DNA from: Candidatus Falkowbacteria bacterium
Lineage (GTDB): Bacteria; Patescibacteriota; Patescibacteriia; Patescibacteriales; Patescibacteriaceae
Reading direction: 5' to 3'
NCBI GenBank assembly: GCA_026396835.1
Contig: JAPLWA010000003.1
Location: 1 to 64,000 of the forward strand
Length of the DNA stretch: 64,000 nt
Positions 33,423 to 61,662 of the stretch are shown here, piece by piece. The number at the start of each line of letters is the position of its first letter. Position 1 is the stretch's first letter. Both the position numbers and the translations under genes were made by a program. The notes below the pieces were generated by a model that was given only the letters and a program-made list of their open reading frames with translations, searched no databases and was not told where the DNA came from.

Positions 33423-33452
33423 TCCGCCGAAGGCGGACCAGCCTTTGGCTGG
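33423..33452. repeat. 30-bp double-hairpin element between rpsB and tsf
   Basis: Two abutting 15-bp palindromes, TCCGCCGAAGGCGGA and CCAGCCTTTGGCTGG, each with a 6-bp stem and a 3-nt loop (GAA, TTT). The same layout occurs twice inside the tRNA-Glu relic (55519-55548, 55562-55591). Confidence 0.7.
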
Positions 33453-33475: not shown

Positions 33476-33516
33476 TTGCCATTCCGAAGTCCCGACAAAA
33501 TATCGGGGCGTAGTAT
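33476..33516. repeat. Further hairpin in the rpsB-tsf spacer
   Basis: TCCCGA/TCGGGG with an outer CCAT/ATGG pairing; its first part GACTTGCC.TTCCG.AG resembles the third insert in the tRNA-Glu relic (55601-55620). It may act as an attenuator between rpsB and tsf. Confidence 0.4.
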
Positions 33517-33519
33517 GGT

Positions 33520-55404: not shown

Positions 55405-55408
55405 CTAG

Positions 55409-55480
55409 TAGTCCCAAGGGGAATCGAACCCCTATTACCAGGATGAAAACCTGGCGTCCTAACCGTTAGACGATGGGACC
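55409..55480 (-). tRNA. tRNA-Glu (anticodon UUC)
   Basis: A 72-nt cloverleaf on the minus strand. Acceptor GGTCCCA pairs with TGGGACT (G1-U72 wobble), the anticodon arm is CCAGG-TTTTCAT-CCTGG giving UUC, and the T arm is AGGGG-TTCGATT-CCCCT. CCA is not encoded. A broken copy of its 5' half lies just upstream at 55514-55648. Confidence 0.95.
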
Positions 55481-55518
55481 AAATATATTAAATTTTTAAC
55501 AACCATTATTTAAGGATG

Positions 55519-55548
55519 CCCGCCAGAGGCGGGTCCGCCTTTGGCGGA
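55519..55548. repeat. 30-bp double-hairpin element (insert 1)
   Basis: CCCGCCAGAGGCGGG abuts TCCGCCTTTGGCGGA: two palindromes of 6-bp stem and 3-nt loop. It sits exactly between the G of GGATG and AAAACC of the tRNA-Glu copy. Confidence 0.75.
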
Positions 55549-55561
55549 AAAACCTGGCGTC

Positions 55562-55591
55562 TCGCCCGAAGGGCGACCAACCTTTGGTTGG
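55562..55591. repeat. 30-bp double-hairpin element (insert 2)
   Basis: TCGCCCGAAGGGCGA abuts CCAACCTTTGGTTGG; same plan and loops (GAA, TTT) as the element between rpsB and tsf. Confidence 0.75.
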
Positions 55592-55603
55592 CTAATCTTA
55601 GAC

Positions 55604-55637
55604 TTGCCCTTCCGTAGCTCGCAAAGCGAAGGAGGGC
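55604..55637. repeat. 34-bp palindromic insert (insert 3)
   Basis: GCCCTTCC...CGC-AAA-GCG..GGAGGGC forms one long imperfect hairpin. Its left part resembles the hairpin at 33474-33490. Confidence 0.6.
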
Positions 55638-55800
55638 GATGGGACCATGAGTCAATAATCTCTATAATTAAAGAAAATTAAGATCAAAATCTAGTATAAT
55701 AATGAAAAGCAATATTGTCAAGCACTGATTTACCTTGACACTAGCCCATATTTACCGTAGATTGAAAGATTGATTTTACAGATCTAGGGTTTAATTTTAC

Positions 55801-58460: not shown

Positions 58461-60654
58461 AGCGAAAACAATTTCAAAATTTTTAGGCAAGGGGTTCATG
58501 GTTGAATCTTCTTTTGGTCATATCCGCGATTTACCGAAGTCTGATATTGGTATTGATATTGAACATGACTTTAAACCACGTTATGTTATTCCTACCAAAG
58601 CCAAAAAAACTGTTACTAAATTAAAGAAAGCAGCCGAGAAAGCTGATGAAATTATTCTAGCAAGCGATGAAGACCGCGAAGGAGAAGCGATTGCTTGGCA
58701 TTTGGCCGAAGCACTAAAGATTCCGGCGGATAAAATTTCTCGTATTGTTTTTCACGAAATTACTAAAGAAGCAATTCAACACGCTTTAGAAACACCGCGT
58801 CAAATTGATCAAAATTTAGTTGACGCTCAACAAGCTCGTCGTGTACTTGATCGTTTGGTTGGTTACGAGCTCTCCCCTTTCTTATGGAAAAAAGTCGCGC
58901 GCGGTTTATCAGCCGGACGCGTTCAATCAGTCGCTCTAAAAATAATTGTTGATCGCGAAAAAGAAATTGACAGTTTTGAAACTCAAGAATACTGGAGTAT
59001 TACTGCTCAACTCATAACTAAACAAAAAGAAAAGTTTAATGCTGAATTAGTTAAGTTCGATAATAAGTCACTTGATAAGCTAGCCATTAAAAATAAAGAA
59101 GAGACTGAAGACTTTGTTAGCAAATTAAAACAAGCTGATTTTATAGTTGAAAGCCTAGAAAAGAAACGAACTAATAAATCAGCGCCTGCTCCATTTATAA
59201 CTTCAAGTTTACAACAGGCAGCTAACCGAACTTTAGGTTTTTCAGCCAAGCAAACCATGATGTTAGCTCAGCAGTTATACGAAGGTATTGAGTTGGGCTC
59301 TGAAGGCAGCGTTGGTTTGATTACTTACATGAGAACTGACTCACTAAATCTAAGTGAGAATTTTTTGAATGAAGCACGCGAACATTTAATTGAATCATTA
59401 GGCAAAGAATACGCGCTTGATAAGCCACGTCATTTTAAAACTAAAGCCAAAGGCGCTCAAGAAGCGCACGAAGCAATTCGTCCCAGCTCTGCGCTTAGAA
59501 CGCCGGAAAGCATTAAAGATTCATTAGCGCCTAATCAATTCAAGCTATATAAACTTATTTGGCAAAGAGCAATCTGCAGCCAAATGCCAGAAGCACAACT
59601 TGATCAAACTGCGATTAACATTAAAGCTGACAAAGGCGAATTCAAAACCACTGGTCAGACCATTGTCTTCCCTGGTTGGTTAAAGCTATCACCGGAAAAA
59701 AGCCAAGAAACAATTTTGCCTGAAGTTAGCGAAAAAGAAAAATTAGAATTGGAAGATCTAATATCAGAACAACATTTTACTAAAGCGCCAGCCCGTTACA
59801 GCGATGCTACTTTAGTTAAAGAATTAGAAAAGCACGGCATTGGTCGCCCTTCGACTTATGCTCCAACCATTTCTACAATTGAAGCGCGTAATTACGTTAC
59901 ACGCGATGAACATAAAAGATTAAAACCAACCGACATTGCTAAAATTGTCATTGATTTACTAGCTGAACATTTTAAAAATATTGTCGATGTTACTTTTACA
60001 GCTAAAATGGAAAATGATCTTGATGAAATTGCTGACGGAAAAATATTATGGCAGCCAATCGTGTCTCAGTTCTATGGTCCCTTTCATGAGAACCTACAAA
60101 CTAAATATGAACTAATTAAAAAAACCGATATTATGCCAGAACAAACAACCGAGGAAAAGTGCGATAAGTGTGGTTCGCCTATGTTAGTCAAAACTGGTCG
60201 CTTTGGACCATTTTTAGCTTGCAGTAACTTTCCTGAGTGCCGCAATATTAAATCCATGAATAAAGATGCGACACCTGAACAAAGTGAAAAACTTAATGCT
60301 TTGAATGAACAATTCAAAGATGAAGTTTGTTCAAAGTGCGGTTCAAAAATGGTAGTTAAGAATGGTCGCTTTGGTCCTTTCTTGGCTTGTAGTTCTTACC
60401 CAAAATGTAAGAATATAAAAAATATCGTTGATCCAAACGCCGAAGTTATTAAATGTCCAGTTTGTAAAGAAGGTCACATTATCCAAAAGCGAAGTCGCCG
60501 CGGAATCTTCTGGGCCTGTGACCAATACCCTGATTGTAAAACAGCTTTTAACAGTAAGCCGACTGGTGATAAATGTCCTGATTGCGGCGAGCCACTAGTT
60601 GAAGGCAAAGATGGCCCACGTTGTTCAGGCAAAGGCTGCGATTACGGAAAATAG
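58429..60654 (+). CDS. topA: DNA topoisomerase I
   Basis: Type IA enzyme relaxing negative supercoils. The 741 residues start with the TOPRIM domain (MKLVIVESPTKAKTISKFLG and ILASDEDREGEAIAWHL), then the active Tyr in GLITYMRTDSLNLS, HEAIRPSSALRTP, and GIGRPSTYAPTISTI. The C terminus has four C4 zinc ribbons, beginning CDKCG, CSKCG, CPVCK and CPDCG. Translation starts inside the end of dprA, so the two are coupled. A terminator is at 60693-60727. Confidence 0.96.
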   Translation: MKLVIVESPTKAKTISKFLGKGFMVESSFGHIRDLPKSDIGIDIEHDFKPRYVIPTKAKKTVTKLKKAAEKADEIILASDEDREGEAIAWHLAEALKIPADKISRIVFHEITKEAIQHALETPRQIDQNLVDAQQARRVLDRLVGYELSPFLWKKVARGLSAGRVQSVALKIIVDREKEIDSFETQEYWSITAQLITKQKEKFNAELVKFDNKSLDKLAIKNKEETEDFVSKLKQADFIVESLEKKRTNKSAPAPFITSSLQQAANRTLGFSAKQTMMLAQQLYEGIELGSEGSVGLITYMRTDSLNLSENFLNEAREHLIESLGKEYALDKPRHFKTKAKGAQEAHEAIRPSSALRTPESIKDSLAPNQFKLYKLIWQRAICSQMPEAQLDQTAINIKADKGEFKTTGQTIVFPGWLKLSPEKSQETILPEVSEKEKLELEDLISEQHFTKAPARYSDATLVKELEKHGIGRPSTYAPTISTIEARNYVTRDEHKRLKPTDIAKIVIDLLAEHFKNIVDVTFTAKMENDLDEIADGKILWQPIVSQFYGPFHENLQTKYELIKKTDIMPEQTTEEKCDKCGSPMLVKTGRFGPFLACSNFPECRNIKSMNKDATPEQSEKLNALNEQFKDEVCSKCGSKMVVKNGRFGPFLACSSYPKCKNIKNIVDPNAEVIKCPVCKEGHIIQKRSRRGIFWACDQYPDCKTAFNSKPTGDKCPDCGEPLVEGKDGPRCSGKGCDYGK

Positions 60655-60694
60655 TCTGAACCACAGATACCACAGATTAATTGATTAACACAGA
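60654..60694 (+). repeat. Dispersed CCACAGAT repeat, left copy
   Basis: Its first 24 bases (60654-60677, with ACCACAGATACCACAGAT) are the exact inverted match of 61612-61635, and similarity extends to about 40 bp. The two copies flank the gene at 60770. A degenerate third copy is at 61488-61526. Confidence 0.7.
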
Positions 60695-60727
60695 TAAAAC
60701 CCTCTATCAAAAGGGTTTTATTTTTAT
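60693..60727 (+). terminator. Terminator of topA
   Basis: TAAAACCCT/AGGGTTTTA stem followed by TTTTTA. Confidence 0.6.
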
Positions 60728-61565: not shown

Positions 61566-61592
61566 AAAAACTCTCCAAAAGAGAGTTTTTAT
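61566..61592. terminator. Terminator after the gene at 60770
   Basis: AAAAACTCTC/GAGAGTTTTT with a CAAAA loop and AT-rich flanks. Confidence 0.65.
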
Positions 61593-61593
61593 T

Positions 61594-61635
61594 ATCTGTA
61601 TCAATCAGTTCATCTGTGGTATCTGTGGTTCAGAC
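61594..61635 (-). repeat. Dispersed CCACAGAT repeat, right (inverted) copy
   Basis: Inverse of the left copy at 60654-60694: 24 bases perfect, about 40 bases overall with few changes. Confidence 0.7.
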
Positions 61636-61662
61636 AATTTGGCGAGGATACAATAAAAAGTC

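Follow-up and report, generated by a model that had tools for sequence, protein, structure and literature searches.

The double hairpin (DH), a 30-bp element of two abutting palindromes, is probably a non-autonomous mobile palindrome that strikes RNA genes in Patescibacteria and in certain phyla co-occurring with them; the surviving cells would owe their rescue to an intact neighbouring copy. Its status as a family, its covarying two-hairpin fold, its target motif, its empty sites and its insertion in opposite orientations at the same site are established.

A covarying family of double hairpins

The three 30-bp doubles with 6-bp stems and 3-nt loops that a sequence-only reading had described were recovered at their coordinates, all on the plus strand, in the window, i.e. 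the whole 64-kb stretch of DNA analysed (Table 1). No further abutting 6-3-6/6-3-6 double occurs in this stretch, and 20 first-order Markov shuffles of it yielded none. The first loops of the window copies read GAA, AGA and GAA and the second loops TTT, while AAA or GGA is also found as the first loop in relatives. The family is small in the source genome (1.05 Mb, six contigs), with three exact copies and two more at one mismatch that are seemingly real (C4:260415 and C6:96409). The window also contains a second hairpin region unrelated to DH, one flank of which, GACTTGCC, is similar to sequence flanking the 34-nt hairpin of the tRNA-Glu relic. Additionally, positions 60649-60697 and 61592-61640 form an inverted repeat of 49 nt, 90% complementary and spaced 894 nt apart.

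Table 1. Hairpin elements and tRNA-Glu copies in the 64-kb window; a slash marks the point of insertion.
Feature	Position	Strand	Description
Double hairpin (DH)	33423..33452	+	rpsB-tsf spacer, 30 bp; TCCGCC GAA GGCGGA followed by CCAGCC TTT GGCTGG
Second hairpin region, unrelated to DH	33479..33518	+	CCAT ... CCCGACAAAATATCGGGG ... ATGG; read from sequence, approximate bounds
Intact tRNA-Glu (TTC)	55408..55480	-	Working copy, downstream of the relic; ARAGORN, Rfam
tRNA-Glu relic	55513..55646	-	5' part of the gene as far as CATCCT, with three inserts
DH	55519..55548	+	30 bp; anticodon loop of the tRNA-Glu relic (TTTT/CATCC on the minus strand)
DH	55562..55591	+	30 bp; D arm of the tRNA-Glu relic (TTAG/GACG on the minus strand)
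34-nt hairpin of a non-DH family	55604..55637	-	Insert between relic bases 9 and 10

The family was searched for with the pattern CCRRAGG-N8-CCTTTGG, in which the second loop is fixed as TTT, and with the reversed pattern as the control. Exact matches fall at 79 distinct places, spread over 28 of the 145 related genomes, while the control pattern matched five times, which bears out the expectation of more copies than by chance; 77 of these places were examined, one sequence having not been obtained and another not recovered. Fifty distinct elements align without gaps over 30 columns. Under a two-hairpin model, standard pairs occupy 95.3% of cells compared with 79.0% after shuffling, both sides have changed in 89 cells compared with 25.7, and the covariation score is 0.439 compared with 0.142, in a test where the search pattern leaves eight of the twelve pairs unconstrained. 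One long palindrome spanning the 30 bp was rejected, its covariation score being 0.144 against 0.159 after shuffling. The predicted minimum-free-energy fold of the relic RNA pairs one DH as such a single long palindrome despite this result. The sequence-only reading had seen in the varied but paired stems a sign of selection, or of a mechanism, acting on the structure; the covariation stands, whereas selection on the pairing is not established, since template switching in quasi-palindromes would also keep the arms matched, and would do so in one step.

Beyond the 145 genomes, well-paired copies occur, among the matches listed, in records of Omnitrophota, Ignavibacteria, Zixiibacteriota, Elusimicrobia, Bacteroidota, Margulisiibacteriota and Nanoarchaeota; many matches of this wider listing are chance matches in coding sequence, and mis-binning may account for copies in other phyla, as the records are largely metagenome bins. 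Carriage by phages was considered and rejected, as just one of the 34 places matching the pattern in viral contigs has at least 11 of the 12 pairs. A second dispersed palindrome, the 20-bp CCTGCCTGCCGGCAGGCAGG, is present in 54 of the 145 genomes, with no control matches.

Target sites and broken copies of RNA genes

At the 77 examined places, position -2 of the flanks is T in 65, -1 is Y in 64, +1 is R in 68 and +2 is A in 65, giving TY/RA as the preferred insertion point, and no target-site duplication is visible at them. The motif is a property of the target rather than of the element, since it is present in intact tRNAs and 16S genes, with good or near matches in the universal T-loop (TTCRA), the anticodon loop (TTTT/CA) and the 16S start (GTTT/GATC). 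The D-arm copy at 55562 has an insertion point that is not TYRA. Opposite orientations occur at one tRNA-Glu site, TTTT/CATCC (L001 and L024 versus L038), and at one 16S site, AGAGTTT/GATCC (L043 versus L045).

Empty sites in relatives, which the sequence-only reading had predicted, were found at the one locus compared: the rpsB-tsf spacers of nine relatives, orthologous to the 33423 locus, are all without DH, with one-sided matches in two further genomes (G002 and G007) left out. One of these spacers, TTTTT/AATTTTG in G008, equals the joined flanks of the 33423 copy. Copies also lie in frame in proteins matching the Pfam families GrpE, SMC_N, GyrI-like and DUF3298, the length of 30 bp keeping the reading frame and making such insertions compatible with it. 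A general targeting of hairpin loops was considered and set aside as weak, an empty-site palindrome score of at least 7 being reached at 13% of sites compared with 8% of controls. At one locus (L007, 1550-1680), a long inverted repeat, TGTCATCCTGAACTTG...CAGGATGACA, lies between grpE and the next gene.

The tRNA-Glu relic of the window reads, on the minus strand, GGTCCCATC, the 34-nt hairpin, GTCTAAGATTAG, a DH, GACGCCAGGTTTT, another DH and CATCCT, followed 32 bases on by the intact tRNA-Glu. With the inserts removed, relic and intact gene align with a single gap and are identical at 39 of 40 bases, confirming that the elements are precisely bounded. The precise double-hairpin inserts had been recognised from the sequence alone, while the third insert and the general pattern had been overlooked. 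Since three inserts share one relic, at least two of them arrived after the relic was dead.

Among the 77 places, 17 have a DH crossing a tRNA copy (E<=0.01), whereas of 611 control points within those loci, 23 fall in such a copy; four places have a DH crossing a duplicated 16S 5' end, with the true 16S start adjoining by Rfam in three (L043, L045 and L072) and the fourth (L087) read by eye. Genes for tRNA, at about 45 per genome and 75 bases each, occupy about 0.3% of the sequence, while about one fifth of DHs lie in tRNA-derived sequence, so the TYRA motif alone is insufficient to account for the excess; either loops are preferred, or insertions are retained thanks to the spare copy. One locus (L036, 1-2596) presents a tRNA relic with a DH, then a GIY-YIG gene, then a tRNA with a group I intron (Rfam).

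The frequency of partial copies was assessed in a general sample of 166 tRNA genes from 70 loci, drawn from the top of the tRNA score list blind to DH and GIY-YIG, with a few genes counted twice through overlapping loci (L353/L381 and L365/L406). A same-strand partial copy lies within 450 nt of 31 of these genes, and a GIY-YIG gene within 500 nt of five. A palindrome stands at the inner edge of 14 of the 36 relic segments with a clear end, compared with three of 36 at the outer edge and 161 of 3000 random points; several segments without a perfect hairpin have a shorter one visible by eye (for instance, in L350 and L393). The source genome contains a further palindrome-broken relic of tRNA-Ile (L354). 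It also contains a tRNA-Lys (L058, G000:C4 near 540215) with one 5' and two 3' relics, all broken by palindromes; the two 3' relics enclose a GIY-YIG gene. In G036 (L389), an intact tRNA-Ile in an inverted repeat divides another tRNA-Ile at the anticodon loop, and in the related genome G018 (L365) the two are found in swapped roles.

GIY-YIG genes, rival explanations and the preferred mechanism

Matches to the GIY-YIG domain (PF01541) are present in 143 of the 145 genomes, and the best-scoring 96 of many more matches were taken as loci, 92 of which yielded an ORF. In 23 of these 92 best-scoring loci, a tRNA on the same strand lies near the stop codon, between 45 nt ahead of it and 150 nt past it; ten loci have an upstream tRNA and none has a tRNA on the opposite strand. 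A clear 5' relic of the same tRNA lies ahead of the start codon in 15 of the 23, all 15 of which contain an intact full tRNA. Palindromes of differing families break 14 of these relics (those in L145, L152, L153 and L183 were completed by eye), and in the 15th the anticodon loop is replaced. A rule by which the palindrome would always occupy the loop of the last relic arm was dropped, as breaks fall in tRNA loops in just 8 of the 15.

Judged by their sequences, the GIY-YIG proteins retain the catalytic residues Y, Y, G, R, H and E, and those of the tRNA cassettes have sequence-profile matches to UPF0213 (1zg2, 1ywl), SLX1 and I-TevI chains. Unlike these relatives, the cassette genes are free-standing, about 80 aa long and flanked by one broken and one intact copy of a tRNA; their products are predicted nucleases. 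The NCBIfam match of the member presented falls under the curated cut-off. Protein similarity, over all pairs, is 0.474 within a tRNA isotype compared with 0.381 between isotypes, a result reached in 0 of 20000 permutations. A tmRNA gene lies near the GIY-YIG gene in four loci (L103, L119, L169 and L185). According to one published account, GIY-YIG insertions in rRNA genes of CPR bacteria fit neither intron group (PMC11270868).

These loci could be read as evidence that the palindromes function as components of GIY-YIG tRNA cassettes, which would insert in a tRNA or rRNA gene, supply a replacement gene and leave the spare copy inactivated. The 14 palindrome-broken relics, the grouping of the proteins by isotype and the tracking of GIY-YIG counts by DH counts agree with it; with kinship and genome size only partly controlled in this and the Y1 comparison, rho is 0.40 over all genomes, 0.33 without family f8 and 0.35 for family means. 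We consider this reading unlikely, since most DH relics, including that of the window, have no GIY-YIG gene between relic and gene, the majority of DHs lie outside relics, and just five of the 166 sampled tRNA genes are near a GIY-YIG gene against 31 with partial copies. Protection of a homing site by the hairpin was rejected as well: every target base is still present in the intact copy, and breaking a spare copy therefore gives no protection against the nuclease. It is possible, at a rather low probability, that mobile units of Patescibacteria target tRNA and rRNA genes, a palindrome breaking the resident gene and a replacement standing beside it, sometimes with a GIY-YIG gene, and that DH, CCTGCCTGCCGGCAGGCAGG and others are interchangeable parts of such units. 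This would fit the nested cases, namely the split tRNA-Ile of L389 and the loci L153 and L058, where the same palindrome is present in the relics on either side of the GIY-YIG gene. The latter two loci suggest that the palindrome preceded the duplication, and together with the inserts that entered a shared relic after its death they favour an independent mobile palindrome.

The sequence-only reading had suggested looking for a REP-associated transposase (RAYT); such a Y1 enzyme would move DH as a REPIN-like element. The source genome has Y1_Tnp fragments at two of its contig ends, and the domain is found in 20 of the 28 DH genomes compared with 55 of the 117 others (p=0.02), but the association is gone without family f8 (p=0.26), and the counts give a rho of 0.17 for the full set of genomes, 0.09 with f8 removed and 0.08 for family means (p=0.56). 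Eight of the 28 DH genomes are without Y1_Tnp at E<=0.001; it is absent from three of the richest, G135 (ten DHs), G049 (eight) and G115 (six), as well as from G078 (three), which makes the suggested link very unlikely. The two fragments (G000:C1:2-148 and C6:111940-112086) have equal scores and probably belong to a single repeated IS200-like gene lying at breaks of the assembly. A local origin by template switching or slipped replication at GC-rich palindromes, with DH not mobile, would explain compensatory stem changes by a single event and suits tandem units such as those of L074, but is highly improbable in view of the consensus common to many genera, the occurrence of either orientation at a single site and the clean 30-bp insertions in tRNA copies. 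A role as a transcription terminator or other cis-regulatory RNA, to which two stable GC hairpins in mostly intergenic positions would lend themselves, is extremely improbable, as copies lie in frame in proteins and inside tRNA relics. Whichever strand is read, the flanks are rich in T ahead of the element and in A behind it, the reverse of an intrinsic terminator (a hairpin and then a T run), which was rejected on this ground. An Rfam search of the window gave no match at the DH places.

According to the preferred explanation, an independent mobile palindrome, DH would insert precisely at the Y/R step of TYRA, in either orientation and with no duplication of the target site. It may be mobilised in trans by way of a folded single-stranded intermediate that a nuclease or recombinase pastes in; the comparison of Y1_Tnp and GIY-YIG counts with DH counts across the 145 genomes identified no mobilising enzyme. 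The loops of RNA genes would be struck, with survival only of cells holding or gaining an intact neighbouring copy, and the broken copy would persist as a relic in which further palindromes accumulate, the tRNA-Glu relic of the window plausibly representing such a case. Essential single-copy tRNA genes are the expected worst place for an insertion, yet partial copies beside working genes are common in these reduced genomes and rich in palindromes at their inner edges, which points to a steady flow of tiny palindromes through the tRNA genes of a large, mostly uncultured bacterial group. What moves non-coding elements of 20-30 bp, and how cells survive an insertion in an essential gene, thus become testable questions.

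Comparison with known mobile palindromes

Double-hairpin elements (DHE) were reportedly described in fungal (Allomyces) mitochondrial DNA by Paquin et al. in 2000 (cited in PMC5910586), and are not known to have a transposase. Sponge mitochondrial RHEs are a comparable kind of hairpin element (PMC2800124). Both resemble DH in having two short abutting hairpins, in being mobile and in lying between genes and within RNA genes. As in DHE, the two abutting hairpins of DH are conserved as a structure, judging by covariation, and the element is present or absent at homologous sites, namely one locus with nine empty spacers and the relic versus the intact tRNA. DH differs from DHE in its bacterial chromosome, fixed 30-bp length, TYRA target and many copies in spare tRNA and 16S copies. 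It is regarded as working like DHE and not as a member, because the host is bacterial; the likeness is one of structure.

Rickettsia palindromic elements (RPEs) are longer than the 30 bp of DH, and some of them lie in frame in coding genes. Like DH, they are dispersed palindromes (PMC2694212). In-frame insertion in proteins is likewise found for DH, and the likeness is one of behaviour. Cyanobacterial small dispersed repeats are very short and mobile, and resemble DH in these two respects.

REPINs share with DH a palindrome doublet that is dispersed and non-autonomous, but they form an inverted pair with a spacer, whereas DH has different, abutting palindromes (PMC3116915). A RAYT in the carrier genomes and two inverted REPs that pair with each other are features of REPINs; eight of the 28 DH genomes are without Y1_Tnp, and the single-palindrome fold of DH is without covariation. 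In a homing cassette, the insertion disrupts the target and the allele resists cutting, while an intact tRNA is present in all 15 GIY-YIG loci with a 5' relic. Searches of the PMC literature, which leaves out subscription journals, listed no paper dealing with bacterial DH or with GIY-YIG tRNA cassettes of this phylum. We call DH a new variant among the kinds to which the mitochondrial DHE and the Rickettsia RPE belong.
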